From a virus, in the IMG/VR virus record IMGVR_UViG_3300005613_004609, positions 1-59,917 of that record: DNA of 59,917 nucleotides, one strand, 5' to 3'. The first letter of the stretch is position 1. Every line of letters starts with the position of its first letter. The position numbers were made by a program, and so were the translations under genes. Under the pieces are notes generated by a model, which was given only the letters and a program-made list of their open reading frames with translations, did not search any database and was not told the origin of the DNA. Positions 834 through 32,284 of the stretch are shown here, one piece after another.

Positions 834-1352
834 TCAATGCATATTTATTATCTGATAAGAATCCGATCTTGTTATCATAAACCCGAATTTAGTGTCATTA
901 TAAATGTACACTGTCCATCTATCATCGCCAGAAACAACATCCCTAAAGAAATCAAAGTTCAGAGTATATTTCTCTTTCAGGGTACGTATAATTTTAGCAT
1001 AGGGAGCAGACACATCACACGCGTTATTGTCCCATGGCCAGAGATCAAGGGTAATTGCATCATGAGTCGGAAAAATCTTCTCCCATTCAGGAAACTTAGC
1101 ATCCTCTTGCAGGGTCAGCCCAAGCTTATTTTTCTGATTAGTCACAACTTGATACACGCCATCCTGATATGGGTGAACAGCATCCAGGCAATGGATTCTA
1201 TTCCCGTCAGTCCCTACTATCAATTCCCCCTTAATCTGTACACAGTCAGTTCTGTACATCATCTGCATATTTTTCTTCTTAGTAGTGGCACTTATCACCC
1301 ATTTCATTGCATCAAAATAGGGATAATTCTTGCCAAGTTCTATATATTCCAT
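834..1352 (-). CDS. Possible sliding-clamp-like protein (172 aa)
   Basis: ATG 1352 follows AGAGGGG. The pattern VGTDGNRIHCLD (about residues 46-57), then DGVYQVV and FPEWEKIFP, resembles the ATDGHRLH ... FPDYERVIP pattern of the first domain of the beta sliding clamp (DnaN). At 172 residues it is far shorter than bacterial DnaN (about 370), so it would be a one- or two-domain phage derivative or a clamp-fold relative. A dedicated promoter lies at 1431-1459. Fold comparison would be needed; it could be an unrelated hypothetical protein. Confidence 0.45.
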   Translation of the reverse strand: MEYIELGKNYPYFDAMKWVISATTKKKNMQMMYRTDCVQIKGELIVGTDGNRIHCLDAVHPYQDGVYQVVTNQKNKLGLTLQEDAKFPEWEKIFPTHDAITLDLWPWDNNACDVSAPYAKIIRTLKEKYTLNFDFFRDVVSGDDRWTVYIYNDTKFGFMITRSDSYQIINMH

Positions 1353-1576: not shown

Positions 1577-2534
1577 GGTATCCTAAATATCTCATACGAA
1601 ATATAGAGCTATAATACTATCGCGGCACTGCTACTATCTTGTAAAATTTGGAAATCCGTTTCTTCTATAGCTTATTGTGTCTGATAAGATAGATTATGTA
1701 AACCAGCTTTTCTCCCGTCACACAGCACAGAACAGTTAAGCATTTGCAGCTGCCATTTTCCTATATCAAATTGCAGATCAATGATGCACATACATATACT
1801 AACTTTATTTCCTTTCTATCTTGTATGAAAAGCCGTGCGGGTTAGGTTTTAATGATGTTTAATGACATTTCATTGTTATTCAGTCATTACTCTTTAGTAT
1901 CCCCTTCATATACACCCATGTTTAATACATATATCCATTCCTTTCTACACTTTCATTGCCCTTTAGCTTATTCAATATGTATTCATTGTTTATTATCCTA
2001 TATCATCTACACTTCTATACACTCCCACCACGCCAGGTGTCCATCCAGGCAGCCAGGCCACAGCCACCGCAACAGCCATAAAGCACAGTATAAACACATC
2101 TTTCACATATGCACAGTGATTAATGCAGATAAGCGATTGATATTATTATACATTGTACTTTTATAGCATCATTAACATATGATATTAATCACCCTTTATA
2201 GTTCATATACACAGACTGTATTATATACTTATTCATTCCCGCCAAGACACACTTGTCATAACAGTTGATTAGTTAATCATCCGGATATTATTGTCAGGCA
2301 ACACATGCAACCAACACATGATGCAACCATTAGAACCAGAACAGTATGTTACATTAGGTAGCTTTACAGAGGGTAGCTTTATAGGGATAGGGGCAGCTTT
2401 ACATAGGGGTACTTATAGAAGGGGGGCACAGCATAAAGGGGGTACTTATATACAGAGGGCACCATATACTCCCCCCAGGCAACCAGGCAACCAGGCAAAG
2501 GAGGCAAAGGAGGGAGGTTTACTACATGGAGATG
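1577..2534. other. Gene-free region with repeats and composition switch
   Basis: No frame here has a convincing ribosome site or protein-like composition on either strand. About 1840-2110 the plus strand is very poor in G; about 2340-2520 it becomes G-rich, opposite to the rest of the window. It holds short inverted repeats (for example TGATTA/TAATCA at 2266-2279), a possible minus-strand -10 TATAAT at 2220-2225, and repeated CAGGCA words near 2045-2060, 2295 and 2475-2500. Candidate control, origin or packaging region; the role is inferred only from layout. Confidence 0.5.
2340..2520 (+). repeat. G-rich degenerate tandem repeats
   Basis: Repeats of the form (T/C)AGCTTTA followed by AGGG or GGGG recur at roughly 16-25 base steps, twice followed by GGTACTTATA, then AGGCAACC three times and AGGCAAAGG twice. 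Several G runs of 3-6 are closely spaced and could fold as a G-quadruplex on the plus strand. Confidence 0.55.
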
Positions 2535-2768
2535 TTAGCTTTTTGCAATCGCTTGCACTTTTCTTCCTTCCCAGTGCACAGCATGCCATACAGTAGAGGC
2601 CCTTAGTTTCGTCAGGGCAACAGCAAGGTCAAGGTATTGCTCCTTTGTTAAACGGGCCGCCAAAATAGCGTTATCATCATCAATCAAGTTCCCAGTATCG
2701 GTATATCCAAGATCATGTAACGCATGCACAGTGTCACTTGTTATCTCCAGGTCAGATAGTTTTGGCAC
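2535..2768 (-). CDS. Small protein of unknown function (77 aa)
   Basis: GTG 2768 is preferred because AGAGGAG lies 6 bases upstream; a TTG at 2786 in the same frame has no signal. The protein is acidic and helical-looking (ITSDTVHALHDLGY ... RLTKEQYLDLAVALTKL). It ends in VQAIAKS, where CAA GCG ATT GCA belongs to the dispersed palindrome. It overlaps the end of the upstream gene by 17 bases and is the last gene before the 1 kb gap. Confidence 0.55.
   Translation of the reverse strand: MPKLSDLEITSDTVHALHDLGYTDTGNLIDDDNAILAARLTKEQYLDLAVALTKLRASTVWHAVHWEGRKVQAIAKS
2544..2557. repeat. Dispersed palindrome copy 2 (TGCAATCGCTTGCA)
   Basis: Lies in the last codons of the gene at 2535-2768, read there as QAIA. 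Confidence 0.85.
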
Positions 2769-3219
2769 AATGAACTCCTCTTTCAATGGGGTAGGGGGAT
2801 CGTTTTTCGAACTGGCATTTTTTAATTCTCTTTTTAGGGGTACTACCAGCCATTCGGATCACCCTAACATCCTGATTAACAGTAGCAGAGGGAGCACTAG
2901 CAATCGGTACTCTTGTTTCCTCTTCAACAAAGTGTAGCATAGTTCGAGTCAGGTAATCAAACAGGACAGGGGGACTCATATATTCTACATCGTCCATAGA
3001 AACTTCAACATATCCCTGTTGAACTGGTTTCCACACCTCTCGTGCCTTGTAGTTGAATATAAAGACCAGAGACCTTGTGAGCACGGATTCCTGTACCCTT
3101 TCCAGTGCAATGTGCCCTTGAGAGCCCTCAGAAATAGCCTTATTAAGAGTTTGAATAAGATGTTTTGAATATAATCCTCCTAACCTCGCAGCATCCACAA
3201 CAGTTCCTAACTGAGACAT
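2752..3219 (-). CDS. Hypothetical protein (155 aa)
   Basis: ATG 3219 lies 5 bases after AGGAGG (the ATG at 3222 is too close). It has no cysteine pattern or membrane segment and carries a basic C-terminal region (TPKKRIKKCQFEKRSPYP). It belongs to the operon that runs down from the terminase genes, with long overlaps on both sides, so it may be a virion or packaging accessory. Family not recognised. Confidence 0.55.
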   Translation of the reverse strand: MSQLGTVVDAARLGGLYSKHLIQTLNKAISEGSQGHIALERVQESVLTRSLVFIFNYKAREVWKPVQQGYVEVSMDDVEYMSPPVLFDYLTRTMLHFVEEETRVPIASAPSATVNQDVRVIRMAGSTPKKRIKKCQFEKRSPYPIERGVHCAKTI

Positions 3220-4314: not shown

Positions 4315-5991
4315 TCATACAACACTTGCTCTCAACCTCCTTCCGTCCTGCCCCTTTCTATCAGCCCGCGTTATCCTCACCTTTCTAACTTCCATCGGTG
4401 TTGAGGTGGCAGGTTGTTCATCCACAGCAGAACTACGCCTTGCCCGTTTAAATCGTGCAACTTTAGAGTACAGAATAAAAACAAGTCCAGCAATTGCGTC
4501 AGCCACATCCTTTGAGCCAGCAGGTGGATGGTCGATCTTATTCTTCTCTTTGTCCCTTTCTATTTCCCTCAGTTCTTTAGCCAACGTCTCTTGTGAGGGC
4601 ATCAAGATACGCTCATCCTTCACAGCCAGTTTCACTTCAGTGTAGGGAGCAATAGAAGTGTCAACAGACAAGACACCGGATCGTATACGTGCCTTTCTGA
4701 ATGACTGATAGAATAAAGGAGCCTGGTAAGAGTCCATAGTGCACCATCCCAGGTTTATCCTACTTCTTAAGTGCATAACAAAGTCACGTACCATCTCTAA
4801 ATCTACTTCCTCCCCGGACCTCGACTGTATCCTTAACGCACCATCAATATGGTATATAGGAGCCAGGATATCAGTAACCTCAATAAATGAGTTAGCCCTA
4901 CTATCAAAGAAACGAGTGGAGGGGAGGTTTTTATATCCTGAAATATGACCAACACCAAGGCCAAGTGCGTCCCCAGTCAACCCAACATCAATATGTGCTG
5001 CAAAAACAGCTTGTTTATCCAGTAGAACATCTCTTATATAATCATCATTAATCAGATCATTCCACTCGTCAATTCGGTCGAAGAAGTCTGGTAGAAATAT
5101 ATCATCATTCACGAACAATTGATTACCGCCAGTCAGGGAGTTAAACTTATCCCGGGCCAGCTGCATAGCCTCTCTATAGGGAATGAAAGGTGACTTAGTT
5201 CCAGTTGCAATGCCTCCAAGGTCCTTTAGTGCAGCATCAATATCCCGCTCAAACTCAATCTGATACTCAGTAGGCACTTCTACCACGTCCTCAGCATCCA
5301 GGGCATCCTCAATATTAGCCAGAATACGTGATTGTTTCAGTTCATTACCAACCTCAATTAGGAATTTATCACCACAGAATCTATCAGCCGGTAAAGCCTC
5401 CCATTGAGAGTAGGACATAACAAATATGCTCTTATCCGTCTTAGCCTCCTCCATCTTCTTATCAGTGAAGTCGCCAGGATAGTTCCTTGAGGAAATGAGC
5501 ATCAATTTACCAGGGAGTTTCCCTTTCTGCATAAAACGTGACTTCATCCTTCTTATAATAGTGGAATAGAGTCTCTCAGCCTGGTCATACTCTTCCTCCC
5601 CAGTAAACCGAGTTTCAACAGAATCCCTTGTTCGAGCCATGAAGTTCAATTCATCAATAACACCTCCAAACACGTTCATTCCAAGGGCTGCAGTATCATT
5701 ACCACCAACAGGCAGGACAACTATCTGAGAAGGAAATCGTAACTCAGATCGTACTGCAGGATCAAAACGAAAGTTTTTCTGAAAATACGGACTTAACCGT
5801 AAACGTTCCGAGAATTGGTCAAAGACAACCTTCTTAGCCAGAGTCAAGGTTTTAGACTGTGCTATAAAGAATATGGTAGAGCCAGGGGCAAGATCGAACT
5901 CAACCTGTGGGTTATGATAACAAGACAGTTTATAAATCATATAAGCAAGCGCCATATCAGCAAAATAATTCTTTCCAATACCAATCGTCAA
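4315..5991 (-). CDS. terL: Terminase large subunit, C-terminal part
   Basis: This is the motor and nuclease of DNA packaging, lacking its first about 140 residues. It opens with IGIGKNYFADMALAY, the end of the P-loop and following helix. Then come LSCYHNPQVEFDLAPGS, a Walker B GVIDELNF near residue 110, and an RNase-H-like nuclease region with AHIDVGLTGDALGLG (first catalytic Asp). The first codon is TTG, overlapping the stop of the upstream frame as TTGA. The N-terminal extein plus an intein are in 5988-7502. Read together, the P-loop would be TGAIGIGKN, but an 8-base excess and a stop separate the halves. Confidence 0.85.
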   Translation of the reverse strand: MTIGIGKNYFADMALAYMIYKLSCYHNPQVEFDLAPGSTIFFIAQSKTLTLAKKVVFDQFSERLRLSPYFQKNFRFDPAVRSELRFPSQIVVLPVGGNDTAALGMNVFGGVIDELNFMARTRDSVETRFTGEEEYDQAERLYSTIIRRMKSRFMQKGKLPGKLMLISSRNYPGDFTDKKMEEAKTDKSIFVMSYSQWEALPADRFCGDKFLIEVGNELKQSRILANIEDALDAEDVVEVPTEYQIEFERDIDAALKDLGGIATGTKSPFIPYREAMQLARDKFNSLTGGNQLFVNDDIFLPDFFDRIDEWNDLINDDYIRDVLLDKQAVFAAHIDVGLTGDALGLGVGHISGYKNLPSTRFFDSRANSFIEVTDILAPIYHIDGALRIQSRSGEEVDLEMVRDFVMHLRSRINLGWCTMDSYQAPLFYQSFRKARIRSGVLSVDTSIAPYTEVKLAVKDERILMPSQETLAKELREIERDKEKNKIDHPPAGSKDVADAIAGLVFILYSKVARFKRARRSSAVDEQPATSTPMEVRKVRITRADRKGQDGRRLRASVV

Positions 5992-7502
5992 ATAGCGCCT
6001 GTATTTGAGCTAAGAATACAAGCGCCATCGGCATCACCTCCTTCCACTTCAACAAAAAATACTCCAGTTGAATCCACCGTTAAACAATAAACATCTTCCT
6101 TAACTCCAAGACACTCAATAGATTTTACCACATGATTTCTATGCTGCCTTGTATCATAACCCATAAACACATCACGAAATTCTATATAAGACATCCCTCC
6201 ATCATTTAATAAAGAATAAATCTTTGAAGCTGAGCAATCCAATTTACTACACAAATCTGCAAAAACTTTGCAATCGCTTGCAATCGCCAAAAGATCATTA
6301 AAATGCAGATCATCTCGTCTATTTGGATGTCTCAGATTTAAGACATGCATTCGCTCTGCACGAATATCTTTCTCTTCAGCTCCTTCCTCAGAATCCCAAA
6401 AATGTTTAGCTATAAATCCAGCCTCTCCATTAAGATTTCTCTTTCTCATTCTTTCAGAAGCTTCTATTCTTTGTTCAAAGTCGCACCACCTTAAGCTCTT
6501 TTTTGCATTCTTACTTGCATTCTCTGATCTTTCAGAAAAAGGCAGAAAGTTGTATTTCTCTATATTATTTATAGCAAGATTCCTATGTAAAAAAGAATGC
6601 TCTCTCCAAGATAGTAATTCTAAATTAGTAGGATCATTATTCATTTTATTAAAGTCTTTATGATGAACTACATTTCCTTTTCTCTCGCCAAATACAAAAT
6701 CAGCCACCATTCTATGAACAAATACCTCTTTCTCATCTTTCTGTTTTATTGTTTGATACTCTCCTCCTCTTCCTATCTTCCTCTTTCCAAGATACATACT
6801 TTCTATTCTATCACCAGTCTTTAAATGTTTAATCTGAACTTTCTCTCCAGAAGAAGTTAAAAATTGATGTCTCGCATTCCCTCTTGCTGAAGAACCATCT
6901 GTAAAATTAACTCGCCACAAGACATCAGTTCCAGTTTTATGTGGAAAGCGTGCTTGTGCCGGACATAAACCATCTTTTCCTCTTGTATATACCCAAAACT
7001 TTTCATCAGGAGCTTTCATTTTAGCAAGCTCCTCTATAGTTGGATTAGTGCCATCAAGTAAAGGCACTCTCATATCCTTAGCAAGGCATAATACACCCTC
7101 AACATAATTTGGATTTTCAAAGAACTCATTTAATTTACTCATTATTGCAGGACGTACAGAACCACCTTGCCTCATATATTCAGAGCTCATAACAAACTCT
7201 TCAACATCCACAACCCTCTCAACCTTAACCCCTCTTTTTTGGATCAGGAGGCTTGAATCCCTTCCCTCATAGGCCCGAGCAAAGTTATTCATGAAATCAC
7301 CAAAGTCAGACAGACGTAGATAATCAACACCATCAAGGTTAAAAGAAGGTAGAGACTTGGCAAGTATACGCATCAAGGCAGCATGTTCCTTGGACGCATG
7401 CATCTCATCGATAACACATTCAACTCTTAATTTGGCCTGCTCAACTGATACTATCGGCATCGCCACTGGGTTTTGGATCGGCAATTGAATATCCTCCATC
7501 AT
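5988..7502 (-). CDS. terL: Terminase large subunit N-terminal part carrying an intein
   Basis: Residues 1-138 are the N-terminal extein (ending NPNYVEGVL), 139-500 an intein, and 501-504 TGAI, the start of the P-loop, followed by TGA. ATG 7502 has no ribosome site; TTG 7484, eight bases after GGAGG, is a plausible start. It overlaps the small-subunit-like gene by about 60 bases. If splicing occurs, only N-extein plus TGAI is released from this frame; the motor would need reading past the stop with an 8-base correction. Sequencing error, programmed recoding, or a real lesion cannot be told apart here. Confidence 0.75.
   Translation of the reverse strand: MMEDIQLPIQNPVAMPIVSVEQAKLRVECVIDEMHASKEHAALMRILAKSLPSFNLDGVDYLRLSDFGDFMNNFARAYEGRDSSLLIQKRGVKVERVVDVEEFVMSSEYMRQGGSVRPAIMSKLNEFFENPNYVEGVLCLAKDMRVPLLDGTNPTIEELAKMKAPDEKFWVYTRGKDGLCPAQARFPHKTGTDVLWRVNFTDGSSARGNARHQFLTSSGEKVQIKHLKTGDRIESMYLGKRKIGRGGEYQTIKQKDEKEVFVHRMVADFVFGERKGNVVHHKDFNKMNNDPTNLELLSWREHSFLHRNLAINNIEKYNFLPFSERSENASKNAKKSLRWCDFEQRIEASERMRKRNLNGEAGFIAKHFWDSEEGAEEKDIRAERMHVLNLRHPNRRDDLHFNDLLAIASDCKVFADLCSKLDCSASKIYSLLNDGGMSYIEFRDVFMGYDTRQHRNHVVKSIECLGVKEDVYCLTVDSTGVFFVEVEGGDADGACILSSNTGAI
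6003..7088 (-). mobile_element. TerL intein with HNH endonuclease (362 residues)
   Basis: It begins with Cys (CLAKDMRVPLLDG, block A) and ends with ILSSN before Thr. Splicing blocks are visible: DGSSARGNARHQFLT, near block B, and DVYCLTVDSTGVFFV, near block F. A homing endonuclease of the HNH type is inserted (VVHHKDFNKMNNDPTNLELL). The usual penultimate His is replaced by Ser (SSN instead of HN), which in some inteins slows or blocks C-terminal cleavage. The insertion point lies in the P-loop, a classic intein site. Confidence 0.8.
6269..6282. repeat. Dispersed palindrome copy 3 (TGCAATCGCTTGCA)
   Basis: Inside the TerL intein, read as IASDCK, showing that even the mobile insert carries the word. 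Confidence 0.85.
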
Positions 7503-8229
7503 CGTTTATAGTCAGCAAAACAGCATCCTTTGAGACTTCCTCAAGCATCTTGTTAGCAGCAGATACCATCACATTCCCGCCAGAACCACCGGCATCTATT
7601 CCTTCTGGATCTACTTTACGTATGAGAGCATCAAAGTATCTCTTTACTGATGTATTCAACTCAGAAGGTTTAGCATCTCTGAGGCCCAAATCTATCTCAT
7701 ATCTTATTAGTTTATCGAGCAAGTTCCCCAGGACCTCAACAGTTTTCTCAGTCATTTTAAGGGGCAGATTAGCATTTTTCTCAGTCTCTCGTAATAGTTC
7801 CAAGCGTTCCGTTTGAACATTAATTACCCAACGTAACCTACCCAGGGAGTCCAGTTTTGCAATGGAACGTTCCCCCTTTTTAGTAGTGCGTTCCACAAAC
7901 TTCTTTCCCTCCTCCTTTGGTAGCCTCTGTGCTTCGAGTTTAAGTTCCCCAACAACTTTTTCTTTAAAGGCAAGAAGTCCCCTACCAAGGGAAGCTGGTT
8001 GAGATTTACGCATGATACCCCATTCAACCTGTACTATCTTTATTATATGATAGGATTTTTGGCCCATACGCAACCTGTGATACACCTCAGCAAGTTGCCG
8101 GTCATTCAACTTCCGCAACCATAGTCCCTTTTTACCAGGAGGATTCACAATGTCACGTAAACGCTTTAGCATCTGTGCGCCAGTGACCTGAACTTGATCC
8201 TTTATTCCAGTGGGAACATCATAACTCAT
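7441..8229 (-). CDS. Probable terminase small subunit (262 aa)
   Basis: It lies directly before TerL, the usual place of the DNA-recognition subunit. Residues about 35-75 (WLRKLNDRQLAEVYHRLRMG) look like a helix-turn-helix, followed by long charged helices (about 85-190) suited to oligomerisation and an acidic, glycine-containing tail. ATG 8229 overlaps the stop of the ParB-like gene and follows AGAGGA. The assignment rests mainly on position and architecture; no signature motif is seen. Confidence 0.5.
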   Translation of the reverse strand: MSYDVPTGIKDQVQVTGAQMLKRLRDIVNPPGKKGLWLRKLNDRQLAEVYHRLRMGQKSYHIIKIVQVEWGIMRKSQPASLGRGLLAFKEKVVGELKLEAQRLPKEEGKKFVERTTKKGERSIAKLDSLGRLRWVINVQTERLELLRETEKNANLPLKMTEKTVEVLGNLLDKLIRYEIDLGLRDAKPSELNTSVKRYFDALIRKVDPEGIDAGGSGGNVMVSAANKMLEEVSKDAVLLTINDDGGYSIADPKPSGDADSIS

Positions 8230-8977
8230 CTGCCAAATCCTCTATATTAGTTTCTTCTGTTTTCTCTGCCAGTTCCAGGAAATCCTTATGCTTTGCAACG
8301 AACTTCTCAATATCCATTAGTGACAAAACACGTGACAGGATAGAGTCAAAAGTATAACCCAACCCCATAGCATCTCTTGCAAGCTTCTTAGCAATGTTAA
8401 AATCCCTTGGAGACATACGTACCCATATATGATTCTTTCCACCGAAGTCGAGCAGCATGTAGTTATAGGGTAAAGTAGAACCATACTTAGTAAACAACCT
8501 GTTCAGGAGAAGGGAGAGATCATCGACAGTCTTTATATCCTCCTTGGCCGCGTCAAACTCCTTTCTCATATCAGGGTCTTCAGGCAGAGATTCCCTTGCA
8601 GATTCCACAAGCAATTGAAACTCATCCTCATTGACAAATCCAAACTCATGAGCCAGTTCACTAAATTTATATTCACCTGTCTTTACAAGTCTATTCACAA
8701 GATCATTGAATTTTCTCGTATTAAGGTGCCCTTTTATTTTATTCATTCTAACAGTCTGAAACATCTGTTTTGCTTCTGGTACTCTATCAGGGTCCGCAAT
8801 GATACAGGGGATTGTTTTAGAGTCACGTAATCTCTCATTCTCATAACGTTGTTCACCATCCACAATTCGAAAGATCTGTCTATCATCACGTATCTCTAAG
8901 GGTACAACCAGTACCGGTTGTAGAAAGTCCACATCTTCTATATTCTCAGACAACATATTAAATTCATCTGCCGTCAT
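8219..8977 (-). CDS. ParB/sulfiredoxin-like domain protein, main part
   Basis: Residues 20-60 (FLQPVLVVPLE ... RIVDGEQRYENERL ... IPCIIAD) match the ParB N-terminal (ParBc) fold with the GEQRY/GHRR-like box. The protein continues with helical segments. The first ParBc strand is missing here but is encoded just upstream in another frame (8988-9161); dropping one T at 8990 gives NPWNPELNEMTADEF, a textbook join. In phages, ParBc proteins near terminase may bind DNA or act as nucleases or CTPases. Its place next to terminase suggests a packaging or genome-handling role (inference). Confidence 0.65.
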   Translation of the reverse strand: MTADEFNMLSENIEDVDFLQPVLVVPLEIRDDRQIFRIVDGEQRYENERLRDSKTIPCIIADPDRVPEAKQMFQTVRMNKIKGHLNTRKFNDLVNRLVKTGEYKFSELAHEFGFVNEDEFQLLVESARESLPEDPDMRKEFDAAKEDIKTVDDLSLLLNRLFTKYGSTLPYNYMLLDFGGKNHIWVRMSPRDFNIAKKLARDAMGLGYTFDSILSRVLSLMDIEKFVAKHKDFLELAEKTEETNIEDLADEL

Positions 8978-16750: not shown

Positions 16751-19177
16751 TTACTCCTTTCGATTAACAGTTTTTATACGTCTAATTTTACCAGTGGAAG
16801 CCTTGTTTTTCCCACTGGACACAAGCCGCGCTTTGTTGGCAACCCATTCACGAATTACCCTTAATTCAACATCGTCCCTTACCGATTGAGGGATAGTCTC
16901 TCTGATCGCTCTTACAACATGTTTTGCTTCAACCTCTACACCCTGGTCAAAAGCAGTGAACATCGCATCCTCGATATCACCCTCAATTTCGGAGCCAGTG
17001 AAACCATCAGACAGAGACGCAAGGGCCTTGCAACCAAATTTTTCAGGTTTACGGCCCCTTTTCCTTAAGTGAATCTTAAAAATTTCTTCCCGTTCATCAG
17101 CACTTGGAAGATCAGTAGCCCAAACCTCGTCAAGGCGCCCCTTCCTATAAACCATTGAGGGAAGGGAGGTTACGTTATTAGCAGTCGCAACCAACATGAC
17201 AGGATAAGAGGTCTCTTGTCTCCAAGTTAGAATAGTTGAGACAACCCGAGCAGTGACTCCAGAATCAAGATCACCGGAACCAGCCATTCCAGCAAGTCCC
17301 TTCTCAATCTCATCCATCCATAACACCACAGGAGAGACAGCCTCTGCAACCATCAAAGCCATTCTGGTAGCTGCCTCACTCTCCCCAACCAGGGAACGAT
17401 AAATCTTCCCCATGTCCATACGAAGCAGTGGGAGTTTCAAGTAAGAAGCCACAGCCTTGGCAGTCAAAGACTTACCAGAATTATGTACTACAAAATCTTC
17501 CGCAAGATAGTTTCTATACGGTTCTTGCATTATAATATCATATGTATCTACTTCACCTTTAGAAACTATTGATACTATTTTTTCAGGAATTACAGTAGAA
17601 TATCTAAAATTCTGCATATTAGTATACCCATGTAAAGTATCATGCTCTACTTTTGTCATTACTTCAAGATTCTCTCTGACATCGTTTGTAAAATCCTCAT
17701 CTTTATGATGGATTGCAACTCCTCTTGGCAAATAAGATAAGTTACTTGCCTTTTTCTTATTTGTTTTCAATACAAAAATGAAGTCCTCTACTGTCATTCC
17801 ATTCATTTCTGCTTCCACAACTAATCTTGCAAAAGCTTGGCTTGAATGACTCTCATTGCTCCAAGCATACGGATGAAACATTAAACCATAAATAACCCTC
17901 CTTCCTTTTCTTGTATTCCTCTTTCTTCCATCTCCAGAGGAGACATCTCTCATCATTACCATATCACCAACAGATAAATCTGATAATTTTATAAAAGCTC
18001 CATCCTCTTCAACCTTGAAGGGGTGCTCAGAAGTGACTTTTATACTCCTTCCAGAATCGGTTGTGACTTCGTAAACCTCTTTAATGCCACTATACACAAT
18101 AGAATCTATATCGTGATACTTGAGGGTCCCATCCTCTGTTAAAGCTAAACATTGTGTATCTATTAAATTATCTACCCAAAGATAACGGTCACCTGAACGG
18201 TGTTTTCCCTGACCAAAACCATTCCTCGAAATTCGATTAAATTTATAGTAGGCATCCTCAATAGTATAAATTCTACCACTATTCCTTTTCCCCCTCCTAA
18301 ACCTAATTTTTGTATCACCAGAAGCACATCCGGCAGGGCCTACAATTAACATCCCTTTTGGGTAAGGGAGACCATATTCACGTGCCTCTTTCGTGAACAC
18401 CTTCTTTCGTCTATGCAACCAAACCTTGAAGGCATCAAATCCACCAACATCGTCCATAGTCTCCCTAACTGGAATGAATTCAAGAACATCAGATTTTCTC
18501 ACCTCTTGCTCTTTCTGAGATTGTATAACATTAAGATCAATCCCCGAAGTTGTGGCAAGAGACAGAGCCAGAGCATTCTCCGCCCCTATTGAATCCAAAC
18601 CGATGGCCGCTGCAGAGGCATCCTTTACAACTTCATCAAGGTCCTCTCCCTTTTTCAATGGTTTCAAATCATCACTATAGGCATTCAATATCTGTTTATA
18701 CCCCTCTGCTATCTGCTCCTGATTTGGCAGAGGACAGTCAATAAAAGTTACTATATTTTTCAACTCGACTGGTAAAGTGATATGTGGCCCAACGAATATA
18801 ATATGACTACCAACCAAACGTGCTGCATTAGCGGCATCAATAGTTTGTTGAATTATCAAGAAGTTCTCAACAAACTGCCTTACGTTGTGGAAAATTGCCA
18901 CAATCGGGGTATCTGAGACCTCAACATAAGCCAGAGCATCCCGTAAATCAGTGGCCACCTCATTTGCAGCGTCACCACTCTCTGAAATGTCTGAGACACG
19001 AAGCCCCTGTGTGATTTTCCAAACGCCCACTCTGATATCATTTATATTGAGTTCAGAGAGAGCATTCCGTACCATCTCCTCTGCCACAGATGGCTCCGTT
19101 GTTCTCATAAAGAGACAAGGATAGCCAGCCTGAATATACTCCCGGATGGTCGGTTCCTGTTTAACCTTTTCCTTCAT
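16751..19177 (-). CDS. AAA+ ATPase interrupted by an intein (808 aa precursor)
   Basis: The host protein (about 525 residues after splicing) has a divergent N-terminal domain (1-230) and a C-terminal AAA+ module like Ycf46/FtsH. Walker A is GPAG plus SGKS, split by the intein at residues 284-566. Walker B is VVLWMDEIEKG, sensor 1 VATANN and the arginine-finger region RKGRLDEVWATDLPS. It is the first gene after its promoter and leads a replication operon, so a remodelling role in replication is likely, though a protease-type partner cannot be excluded. Confidence 0.8.
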   Translation of the reverse strand: MKEKVKQEPTIREYIQAGYPCLFMRTTEPSVAEEMVRNALSELNINDIRVGVWKITQGLRVSDISESGDAANEVATDLRDALAYVEVSDTPIVAIFHNVRQFVENFLIIQQTIDAANAARLVGSHIIFVGPHITLPVELKNIVTFIDCPLPNQEQIAEGYKQILNAYSDDLKPLKKGEDLDEVVKDASAAAIGLDSIGAENALALSLATTSGIDLNVIQSQKEQEVRKSDVLEFIPVRETMDDVGGFDAFKVWLHRRKKVFTKEAREYGLPYPKGMLIVGPAGCASGDTKIRFRRGKRNSGRIYTIEDAYYKFNRISRNGFGQGKHRSGDRYLWVDNLIDTQCLALTEDGTLKYHDIDSIVYSGIKEVYEVTTDSGRSIKVTSEHPFKVEEDGAFIKLSDLSVGDMVMMRDVSSGDGRKRNTRKGRRVIYGLMFHPYAWSNESHSSQAFARLVVEAEMNGMTVEDFIFVLKTNKKKASNLSYLPRGVAIHHKDEDFTNDVRENLEVMTKVEHDTLHGYTNMQNFRYSTVIPEKIVSIVSKGEVDTYDIIMQEPYRNYLAEDFVVHNSGKSLTAKAVASYLKLPLLRMDMGKIYRSLVGESEAATRMALMVAEAVSPVVLWMDEIEKGLAGMAGSGDLDSGVTARVVSTILTWRQETSYPVMLVATANNVTSLPSMVYRKGRLDEVWATDLPSADEREEIFKIHLRKRGRKPEKFGCKALASLSDGFTGSEIEGDIEDAMFTAFDQGVEVEAKHVVRAIRETIPQSVRDDVELRVIREWVANKARLVSSGKNKASTGKIRRIKTVNRKE
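17480..18328 (-). mobile_element. Intein with HNH endonuclease in the AAA+ P-loop (283 residues)
   Basis: Starts CASGDTKIRFRRG (block A), has VTTDSGRSIKVTSEHPFKV (block B with TxxH-like SEHPF), an HNH region (AIHHKDEDFTNDVRENLEV), and ends DTYDIIMQEPYRNYLAEDFV then VHN before Ser. All splice residues (C1, penultimate H, N, +1 S) are present, so it should be active. Confidence 0.88.
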
Positions 19178-21296: not shown

Positions 21297-23300
21297 TCAC
21301 TTCTCCATTCTTTTTTTCACATTCCGTATAATTTCTCGTTGTGCTCTAAGATACTGTATAGGATTCATCTTCCAATAAGTCTGTATCGCATCCAGGGTCC
21401 GCGCTTTGACATCAAAAAGGCGCCATTTACCTTTCTCTTTAAATACCACCCCATATTCCTTAGCATAGTTCATCACAGTATTGTAGTCATCAACCATTCC
21501 CTTTCTAAGGCCCAATTCAGGCATATTTTCACGTATTCTTACAAATTCACCAACACCGGCCAGAGTGAACACTTTCTCTTTACGAATAGCAAAAGAATGC
21601 CGTTGAGCCATATTAACCTTCCTCTGAGAATCGACATACTTCTTCTTATCAGAATCACCGGACATGGATTTTCTTACACATCTAAACAGTAACGAAAACT
21701 CATGTTTCATTCCAAAACCACCGGGCATAATCTCAGGGTCTCCAAATTGGACTCCAACCTTATGACGCATTTGATTAGTAAAGACAATTGCACAGGGGTG
21801 TCCTCTCTTCATTTCCCTAATAGCTCTCTGCTTTAATCTTCTCACAGCCCGAGTTATGAGTTTCGCCTGGTTTCCAATAAACTGATCCTCTGAGGGAGCC
21901 TCAAACTCAGACGAAGGCACAAGATTAGCCAAGGAGTCCACTACCAACAGGCCACAGTCATCAGCACGTAAAGCTGCTTCAGCCAAGTTGATATATTGCT
22001 CCCCATAGTCTGCAAGGCCAAGATAGTATTTATCAGGATCAGCCCCTACTGCTTGCGCCCATCCCTTATTAAAAGTGTTTTCCGTGTCAGCCCAAAATGC
22101 TCGCATCTCTAAGGACGGTTCTGAACAGGTGCAAAATTCCAGTAAGTTAAAACACCTCCAGCATATTCTCTGAGACATACTTAAAGCGGACATAGCAGCA
22201 GTCGTCTTACCTCCACTATTATGAACTACAATGCCATTTGCTATAAAATTATTATTTGGATATTTACATACAATGTCATAAGATTCTCTTTCTCCTACAT
22301 CTTCTATAGAAATAATCTCATCCGGCACAACCATAAATCTAAAATCATTATGCCTCTCAAGTGCATGCATTCTACCATGAGCTATAGAATCTAACACCTC
22401 CAAGTTTCCAGGTGCATTATTAGTAGGATCTCCATCTTTATGATGAACTTGTAAATCTCTTGGAAGGAATCGTAACCTTTCTATTAAAGCAGTATCGCCA
22501 GTATTCAACAATTTAATATACTCCTTATAACTCATAGAATTAAAGACTGCCTCTACTGTTGCACGACTTACACGGCCACGATAATAAACATATTTACCAA
22601 CTTTCTTTTTCTTCCAAAAAGGATGATATTTTACCATAACTGTGGGTCTCTTCTTTTCTAACTCCCTTCCACAATATCTTGTATTATTATGTATATATAC
22701 TCTCTCCCCAGGTCTGATATCCTCCAATCTCCTGAATCCCCTTAGTTCAGTAAGATATCGATGGTCTTTTGATGATATAACACTATACCCTTTTTTTGTA
22801 GTAACTTTAAAAGATACTTTAAGCCCAACATAAAGCACATCCAATACAAGATTCTGTAATACACCTAACTCTGAATTTATTGCTGCAACTGTATAATCAG
22901 AAGTAAGAGTTTCTTTCCTAACATAATGACCTTTACCCTTTCCAGACAAATTATGAAAATTTTCATATAATCGCTTTACAGTAGTCTTCTTATTTGATTG
23001 CCTTCTACCTGTTAGTTTTGACCATGTTGAGCAAGAAATCTCACTATCTCCAGCTAAACAGTCCGGGCCCCAAAAACAGACAGACTGCCACAGTGGAAGA
23101 CCTCCACCGGAGGCATAGTCAACTGCAAAGATTCCAGTTGGTATCCTCAGAGGGTCCTCTGCCCACATAGAGCCTTTTGAAACACTTCGAACACCATATT
23201 GCTGATTTTTCATCTCAAGCAAGGTGTCAAGAGTGTTCGGTTTAGCCAGAGCTTCAGCAGTGGACTCTGCATCCTTCGCCTTGACTTTCTTAGCCTTCAT
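21297..23300 (-). CDS. recA: RecA/UvsX-like recombinase interrupted by an intein (667 aa precursor)
   Basis: After splicing (about 386 residues) it is a RecA-family strand-exchange protein: PTGIFAVDYASGGGLP, Walker A GPD plus SGGKTT (split by the intein, residues 81-361), Walker B CGLLVVDSLANL, and IVFTNQMRHKVGV in the L2-like region. A CxxC-x4-CxC cluster (CWRCFNLLEFCTC) after the P-loop is unusual for RecA. ATG 23300 follows GAAGGAG. The neighbours (UvsW-like helicase, SSB, nucleases) make a complete phage recombination set. Confidence 0.88.
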   Translation of the reverse strand: MKAKKVKAKDAESTAEALAKPNTLDTLLEMKNQQYGVRSVSKGSMWAEDPLRIPTGIFAVDYASGGGLPLWQSVCFWGPDCLAGDSEISCSTWSKLTGRRQSNKKTTVKRLYENFHNLSGKGKGHYVRKETLTSDYTVAAINSELGVLQNLVLDVLYVGLKVSFKVTTKKGYSVISSKDHRYLTELRGFRRLEDIRPGERVYIHNNTRYCGRELEKKRPTVMVKYHPFWKKKKVGKYVYYRGRVSRATVEAVFNSMSYKEYIKLLNTGDTALIERLRFLPRDLQVHHKDGDPTNNAPGNLEVLDSIAHGRMHALERHNDFRFMVVPDEIISIEDVGERESYDIVCKYPNNNFIANGIVVHNSGGKTTAAMSALSMSQRICWRCFNLLEFCTCSEPSLEMRAFWADTENTFNKGWAQAVGADPDKYYLGLADYGEQYINLAEAALRADDCGLLVVDSLANLVPSSEFEAPSEDQFIGNQAKLITRAVRRLKQRAIREMKRGHPCAIVFTNQMRHKVGVQFGDPEIMPGGFGMKHEFSLLFRCVRKSMSGDSDKKKYVDSQRKVNMAQRHSFAIRKEKVFTLAGVGEFVRIRENMPELGLRKGMVDDYNTVMNYAKEYGVVFKEKGKWRLFDVKARTLDAIQTYWKMNPIQYLRAQREIIRNVKKRMEK
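22218..23060 (-). mobile_element. Intein with HNH endonuclease in the RecA P-loop (281 residues)
   Basis: Begins CLAGDSEISC (block A), block B VTTKKGYSVISSKDHRYL, HNH core LQVHHKDGDPTNNAPGNLEV, block F SYDIVCKYPNNNFIANGIVV, and ends VHN before Ser. Splicing residues are intact. Confidence 0.88.
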
Positions 23301-31962: not shown

Positions 31963-31991
31963 AGTTTCAATACCTCCAAAAAGGTTAAAAA

Positions 31992-32060
31992 GTCTCAGTA
32001 AGTGAGACCACTTCGATAAAAAAGTCTCAGTAAGTGAGACCAGGGTGTCTCAGTAAGTGC
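31992..32060. repeat. Three spaced copies of an inverted repeat (operator or iterons)
   Basis: GTCTCAGTAAGTGAGAC (arms GTCTCA/TGAGAC) occurs at 31992-32008 and 32024-32040, and GTCTCAGTAAGTG again at 32047-32059. They lie 30-100 bases before the start of the putative initiator and just downstream (minus strand) of AT-rich -10-like TATAAT near 32078-32083. Confidence 0.8.
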
Positions 32061-32284
32061 GTGTTCATATATAAGATGATTATATAAGAAGATTTTTTGA
32101 AAGAGGTTAAAAGAAGCAAGCAAGTTGCATTCCTTAAAATCTGAAAACTACAAAAGGCAAAAACCTCCCCTTGGAAAATAGGGAAGGCTGCAAAATGATT
32201 TATTTGTGGATTTTCTGTTGCTACTGAATTAATCAGAAATTTTTTACTTGACTTCTTTTTGGAAGTGTTGTACCTTGTATTCAC
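32027..32284 (-). CDS. Doubtful 85-residue frame in the initiator leader
   Basis: GTG 32284 is preceded by AAAGGAG at 6 bases, a good signal, and the frame is open for 85 codons. But the composition (many C, L, F, S; SSYIIILYMNTHLL) is unlike its neighbours and its 3' end covers the GTCTCA repeats. An overlapping 15-codon frame (VKGEYKVQHFQKEVK) starts near the same place. It could be a leader peptide or non-coding. Confidence 0.25.
   Translation of the reverse strand: MNTRYNTSKKKSSKKFLINSVATENPQINHFAAFPIFQGEVFAFCSFQILRNATCLLLLTSFKKSSYIIILYMNTHLLRHPGLTY

Follow-up and report, generated by a model that had tools for sequence, protein, structure and literature searches.

A gene-free gap follows the terminase genes

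The window, as we call the whole stretch of DNA analysed here, is a linear virus record of 59,917 nt (IMGVR_UViG_3300005613_004609, positions 1 to 59,917) and belongs to a tailed phage, of whose genome it is very probably a fragment. Practically all of its genes lie on the minus strand, and a search of the window for tRNAs found none. Reading leftwards along this strand, the DNA polymerase gene (40.9-43.5 kb) and the portal gene (39.2-40.9 kb) are followed by the replication genes (about 19.9-31 kb; exonuclease, resolvase, RecA-like, helicase, SSB-like, primase and DnaB-like), by a ParB-like gene (8219-8977, minus strand) and, close downstream of it, by the terminase large subunit gene (4315-7502, minus strand). 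The terminase is read in two open reading frames (ORFs), 5988-7502, which carries an intein/HNH-like insert, and 4315-5991. The frame changes at 5988-5991, where the intein-like insert ends; this may reflect a programmed frameshift, disruption of the gene or a mistake in the assembly. Intein/HNH-type insertions are present in three genes of the window, the other two being those for the AAA ATPase (16751-19177) and the RecA-like recombinase (21297-23300).

The best cultured matches of the terminase, in Vibrio, Rhodobacter and Rhizobium phages, are 35-39% identical, while about 16 uncultured relatives reach 47-65%. These relatives were located through the terminase; the clamp-like, ParB-like and DNA polymerase genes gave nothing useful as queries. 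A sequence comparison with cultured phages gave no match, even at distant sensitivity, and a genome scan for the host returned a single contig in a Candidatus Binatia MAG, which is insufficient for naming a host.

Past the terminase, the last ORF is 2535-2786 (minus strand, 83 aa, weakly coding-like), and the next gene is ORF 834-1352 (minus strand, 172 aa). Between these co-directional genes lies a gap of 1182 nt (1353-2534). The initial annotation had described a gene-free region at 1577-2534; its end at 2534 stands, while the true start is 1353, so that the promoter described below had been cut off. The absence of genes was borne out when the larger ORFs in the gap were scored for their fit to the phage's own codon usage: their values are negative or near zero, as for non-coding sequence, and the two plus-strand candidates for a hidden gene, 1852-2166 and 2291-2596, were rejected at scores of -23.7 and -1.8. 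The label 'clamp-like' for ORF 834-1352 found no support in Pfam, PHROGs or PDB sequence searches and is used here as a name only. A search of Rfam returned no RNA family.

The gap is rich in direct repeats and contains a zone of reversed skew

The direct and tandem repeats that had been noted in this region occur far above the level in shuffled sequence. Repeated 10-mers cover 203 nt of the gap versus 42 nt in dinucleotide shuffles (maximum 115), a coverage matched by just 1% of equal-sized windows in the contig, and at 2340-2520 there are 26 repeated 8-mers versus 2.5 in shuffles, with none of 500 shuffles having as many. The tandem units on the plus strand are CCAGGCAA, in three copies at 2475-2498, and AGGCAAAGG, in 2.3 copies at 2493-2513; a 17-nt repeat beginning GGYAGCTTTAYA has three copies in the gap. 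The zone at 2340-2520 is C-rich and G-poor on the minus strand (G-rich on the plus strand) and carries the degenerate repeats TATAAGTACCCC, TATAAAGCTACCC and GTAAAGCTGCCC at a spacing of about 15-33 nt. Inverted repeats, which had also been claimed, are at chance level (seven 9-mers, 4.5 expected, P = 0.21). The TATAAGTA repeats were considered as T4-type late promoters and rejected, as exact copies are confined to the gap and absent before late genes.

The strand composition had been described as inverted in two places, and one of them is. At 2340-2520 the plus-strand skew is +0.27 against a window average of about -0.2, and this zone has the densest G-runs of the window (eight runs of at least three in 180 nt). 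The G-poor stretch at 1840-2110 is no reversal: at -0.43, its skew points the way it does elsewhere in the window, where several coding stretches go further (to -0.53 over 270 nt). Outside the gap, the strongest reversed skew is found in a repetitive gene at 58.0-58.4 kb. The repetitive stretch at 57476-58633, with exact 96-nt repeats and a skew of up to +0.51, is the strongest composition outlier of all; reading frames of 385 aa (minus strand) and 131 aa (plus strand) are open along it.

The G-runs do not form canonical G-quadruplex motifs (four G-runs, loops of 1-7 nt), of which the window contains none; most loops in the gap are 10-14 nt, and only long-loop forms (up to 12 nt) are found. 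The G-rich strand folds worse than its shuffles. The C-rich RNA is predicted to be weakly structured as well: in the window, the one genome covered by this comparison, 184 of 200 shuffles are at least equally stable (z +1.44).

Relatives keep the layout of the gap and not its sequence

A gap of 0.8-2 kb, situated 0.3-3.9 kb downstream of the terminase and before the next co-directional block, is present in the window and in five uncultured relatives: G005 (L017; 8191-9414), G004 (L005; 8677-9850), G008 (L020; 22675-23810), G017 (L052; 6491-7294) and G011 (L023), whose contig breaks inside the gap, so that it is represented by the contig's gene-free tail and head. Edges in the relatives are approximate, as the genes were called with a simple codon-usage caller. 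G018 (55% terminase identity), which lacks palindromes, a ParB-like match and a clearly gene-free gap near the terminase, was excluded from the comparison. In each genome compared, few non-coding stretches or none are longer than the gap, and the coding density of these phages is 0.82-0.93.

The base sequences of the gaps do not align at terminase identities of 55-62%; common to them are only a palindrome and short C-runs. Most of the gaps are rich in direct repeats, which differ entirely between relatives. What recurs is position, size range, a flanking palindrome, in part a promoter, and a switch in composition. The initial annotation had named an absence of conservation in relatives as a sign against it; in these features the relatives do show conservation. 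On the coding strand, five of the six gaps change from C-rich to G-rich (P ≤ 0.03), and four change from A/C to G/T; the G004 gap starts G-rich and shows no switch (P = 0.28). The zone in which C exceeds G reaches z 3.2-4.9 in five genomes (100- and 200-nt windows), with z 4.4 in the window and 3.3-4.9 in four relatives at 100 nt. We noticed the same context, TGCAATAAATTGCACGAAAATAAC, near either end of the G011 (L023) contig, where it flanks the broken gap on each side.

Two near-complete contigs (95-100 kb) are broken inside the gap. For one of them, G006, the joint can be read, because the contigs G005 and G006 come from a single phage and are 99.7-100% identical in their overlap around the gap. 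G006 (99,832 nt) is apparently a complete circle except for 693 nt missing midway through the gap, and G005 contains the missing part, so that in part of the population, at the least, continuous DNA crosses the gap. The tandem-repeat copy number is unequal between these two contigs, and no terminal repeats were found in G006. Its break arose in assembly, with repeats on one side, and is not a clean cos end. This fits the headful packaging reported for the cultured phages RcZahn, which is circularly permuted and has 147 genes that all point one way, and RcTiptonus, which packages by a P1-type headful mechanism (PMC8601537).

Predicted promoters begin at the downstream edge of the gap

A sigma-70-type promoter, TTGACA-17-TAAAAT (11 of 12 consensus positions), is predicted on the minus strand at 1431-1459, at the downstream edge of the gap and about 80 nt before the ATG of the clamp-like gene. 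A weaker promoter-like site, TTGACA-17-GATACT (10 of 12), lies at 1548-1576 on the same strand. In the same place, G005 and G004 have TTGACA promoters with normal spacing (TTGACA-16-TATAAT and TTGACA-17-TATCAT), G008 has a TTGACA-15-GATAAT match that is off spacing (15 nt), and no clear promoter was found at the gap edge in G017 and G011. The promoter assignment comes from the consensus match together with the position in relatives, from which its activity and timing would follow. With the layout kept in relatives, this strong promoter supports the 'large control region' of the initial annotation.

Further promoters cluster downstream of the gap. In intervals picked after inspection of the data, five of six perfect 12/12 promoters of the ~100-kb G006 fall in the first 20.5 kb after the gap (P = 0.002), nine of 17 promoter-like sites of G011 fall within the first 22 kb (P = 0.007), and the leftmost 1.6 kb of the window holds four of its 21 sites (P = 0.002). 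Since perfect sigma-70 promoters cluster in about 20 kb there, the block downstream of the gap is likely an early region. Antisense promoters were considered as a source of the inverted skew and rejected, as five of the six gaps contain none.

Evenly spaced palindromes and a ParB-like protein

The palindrome TGCAATCGCTTGCA, an exact copy of TGCAAKCGMTTGCA, lies at 2544-2557 at the upstream gap edge, within the last codons of ORF 2535-2786, and a second palindrome, TGCAATCGATTGCA, lies at 797-810, just downstream of the first gene past the gap. Across the window, TGCAAKCGMTTGCA has 17 matches with at most two mismatches (14 exact), compared with 0.47 expected. With up to one mismatch, the positions are 797, 2544, 6269, 10431, 15321, 19298, 21258, 25129, 28779, 31476, 34717, 38716, 45055, 50788, 55050 and 59185, that is, about every 3.9 kb and mostly within genes. 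The form TGCAANNNNTTGCA occurs 15 times at strikingly regular intervals (CV 0.35, P = 0.0005). A TGCAANNNNTTGCA palindrome is found in or at the edge of all six gaps, and in four (the window, G005, G008 and G017) its distance from the upstream edge is at most 60 nt, a limit that was set after inspection of the data.

Throughout the phage family the palindromes are dispersed, at 4-32 per record. At least twelve related phages, among them cultured ones of Rhodobacter, Rhizobium and Vibrio, carry variants with other centres or arms. Related forms number 16 in G006, 29 in G011, 18 in G008 (mostly TGCAAACGTTTGCA), 10 in G002 (TGCACACGTGTGCA), 32 in G014 (TGAAATNNATTTCA) and 20 in G016 (CGCAAACGTTTGCG); the cultured phages RcTiptonus, RHph_TM16 (TM16), vB_VpS_PG28 (PG28) and RcZahn have 27, 17, 10 and 9, respectively.

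The product of the ParB-like gene is a candidate reader of these sites. It matches phrog_26387 (2e-51), scores 23.3 bits against the Pfam ParB_N profile, below the cut-off of 26.3, and has a putative helix-turn-helix, judged by eye. Genes near the terminase are annotated as ParB-like in RcTiptonus, RcZahn and TM16 and as 'nucleoid occlusion protein' in PG28. Homologues are present in most palindrome-bearing genomes, and G018 has neither homologue nor palindromes; G002 has palindromes and no recognised homologue, and L021 and L025 have the gene and hardly any such palindromes. The ParB-like protein may bind the palindromes. The open-access literature yielded no description of such a palindrome/ParB-like system, an absence that is no proof of novelty. 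The palindromes bordering the gap point to a candidate phage-wide DNA-binding system, and the palindrome set is a wider feature than the gap and possibly the more interesting one.

A proposed junction between late and early transcription

The gap looks functional, with its layout kept and its letters changed completely; for the repeat-rich middle, a role can be proposed. Our preferred reading, held tentatively and at slightly less than an even chance, is that the gap is a junction at which the late transcript ends, probably in a Rho-type zone where C exceeds G, and the early promoters begin. The 57 kb of genes to the right of the gap would be transcribed leftwards into it, the terminase block last. 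Past the last gene, the C-rich, G-poor, repetitive and weakly structured RNA would most likely serve as a Rho-utilisation zone at which the late transcript stops, and at the far end the near-consensus sigma-70 promoter would restart transcription, by the host RNA polymerase, of the likely early block. The sequence in between would drift freely while composition and spacing are selected, as the dissimilarity of the relatives' gaps suggests.

All 148 genes called in G006 have one orientation, which requires late transcription to be halted or overridden ahead of the promoters. An intrinsic terminator (hairpin and U-tract) was sought at the gap and none was found. Published rut sites are G-poor, unstructured RNA with more C than G (PMC9160355). 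Because the RNA of the gap has more C than G, is poorly folded and lacks an intrinsic terminator, a Rho-type zone followed by a promoter is the most economical reading. The gap transcript, following the last gene, resembles in these respects the Rho-dependent terminators of E. coli (PMC9160355); it differs from them in its much greater length, its degenerate repeats and its switch to G-rich sequence before the promoter, and the use of Rho here is our proposal. As in lytic tailed phages whose early promoter regions rely on the host sigma-70 polymerase, a near-consensus promoter precedes a block of small genes with further promoters downstream, whereas the long repeat-rich non-coding stretch and the inverted-skew zone before it are unlike those regions.

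Several observations argue against a junction of this kind. A rut zone and a promoter need some hundreds of nucleotides, and the gaps measure 800-2000. Zones of C over G as strong or stronger occur elsewhere in four of five genomes. One gap (G004) lacks the switch, the G008 promoter is off spacing, and G017 and G011 have no clear promoter. The C-to-G switch was also rejected as a general intergenic signature, being present in just 101 of 197 large intergenic gaps of the phage family, and it may therefore not mark a terminator. A Rho-type zone with a promoter explains neither the length of the gap nor the lack of this switch in other large gaps. If a junction of late and early transcription is correct, the gap would be the defined start of the transcription programme in a large, mostly uncultured and nearly one-directional phage family. 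It shows that a non-coding region can be kept in place and composition without conserved sequence, and it accounts for the assembly breaks of related phages at the same spot.

Alternative roles of the gap

The main rival is a replication origin, proposed in the initial annotation and in our view possible without being probable. The repeats would bind an initiator, the composition change would mark leading-strand divergence, and the palindrome at the edge would load the ParB-like protein. The exceptional length of the gap in each genome, its rapid sequence evolution, the local C-to-G and A/C-to-G/T switches and the presence of a palindrome inside or next to each of the six gaps (about 1e-4 by chance for all jointly) are in its favour. 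So are the gene-free direct repeats at 15-20 nt spacing, which resemble those of iteron-type origins of phages and plasmids; unlike such origins, the gap has no adjoining recognised initiator gene, DnaA-box cluster, sequence shared with relatives or genome-scale skew. The gap contains at most one exact DnaA box in any genome, the relatives have no common motif and entirely different repeats, and skew, DnaA boxes and shared sequence lend the origin no specific support. No genome-scale change in GC skew occurs at the gap (not every phage origin shows one): third-position skew is unchanged there across G006 and merely raised in the neighbouring genes of G008 and G011. Moreover, the replication genes are at least 17 kb away and have a repeat-bearing upstream region of their own (31.99-32.07 kb). 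The repeat there, of the GTCTCAGTAAGTGAGAC type, has three copies at 31987-32065, of which two have the complete dyad; it directly precedes the replication gene block and is a candidate operator or alternative origin.

It is unlikely that the gap is a mostly unselected spacer between two transcription blocks, where repeats and other non-coding DNA build up and function is limited to the promoter and perhaps the palindrome. Such a spacer would agree with the dissimilar gap sequences of relatives and with the copy-number difference between two contigs of one phage, and it is at odds with the retention of a 0.8-2 kb gap in place in six lineages of such high coding density and with the recurrence of one composition switch in five of the six.

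A further reading, which we consider distinctly unlikely, makes the gap a nucleation centre (an origin together with the first centromere-like site), from which the ParB-like protein, bound to palindromes genome-wide, would organise the phage DNA. Such a system might keep or compact replicating phage DNA or hand it to packaging. Dispersed palindromic sites, one of them at the gap edge, and a ParB-like protein are reminiscent of ParB-parS centromeres; in contrast to these, the sites are spread genome-wide in a phage, no ParA was recognised beside the gene, and binding is putative.

Least probable is a packaging initiation site (pac), also suggested initially, or else a physical end of the genome: the gap adjoins the terminase block, two near-complete contigs terminate in it and many relatives' contigs stop within 5 kb downstream of the terminase, but the only readable joint is no clean end (G005 crosses it with 693 nt between the ends of G006, which lacks terminal repeats), the repeats account for the breaks, and the distant cultured relatives have a circularly permuted genome (RcZahn) or package by a P1-type headful mechanism (RcTiptonus) (PMC8601537).

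Cultured relatives

RcZahn and RcTiptonus (Rhodobacter), RHph_TM16 (Rhizobium) and vB_VpS_PG28 (Vibrio) resemble the window in their terminase (35-39%), the ParB-like gene beside it and the dispersed TGCAANNNNTTGCA palindromes; they differ in having another gene order just past the terminase and no 1-kb gap there. In RcZahn (MW677529.1), the annotated gene-free gaps at 81758-82333 and 85175-85746 show the same switch from C-rich to G-rich sequence.
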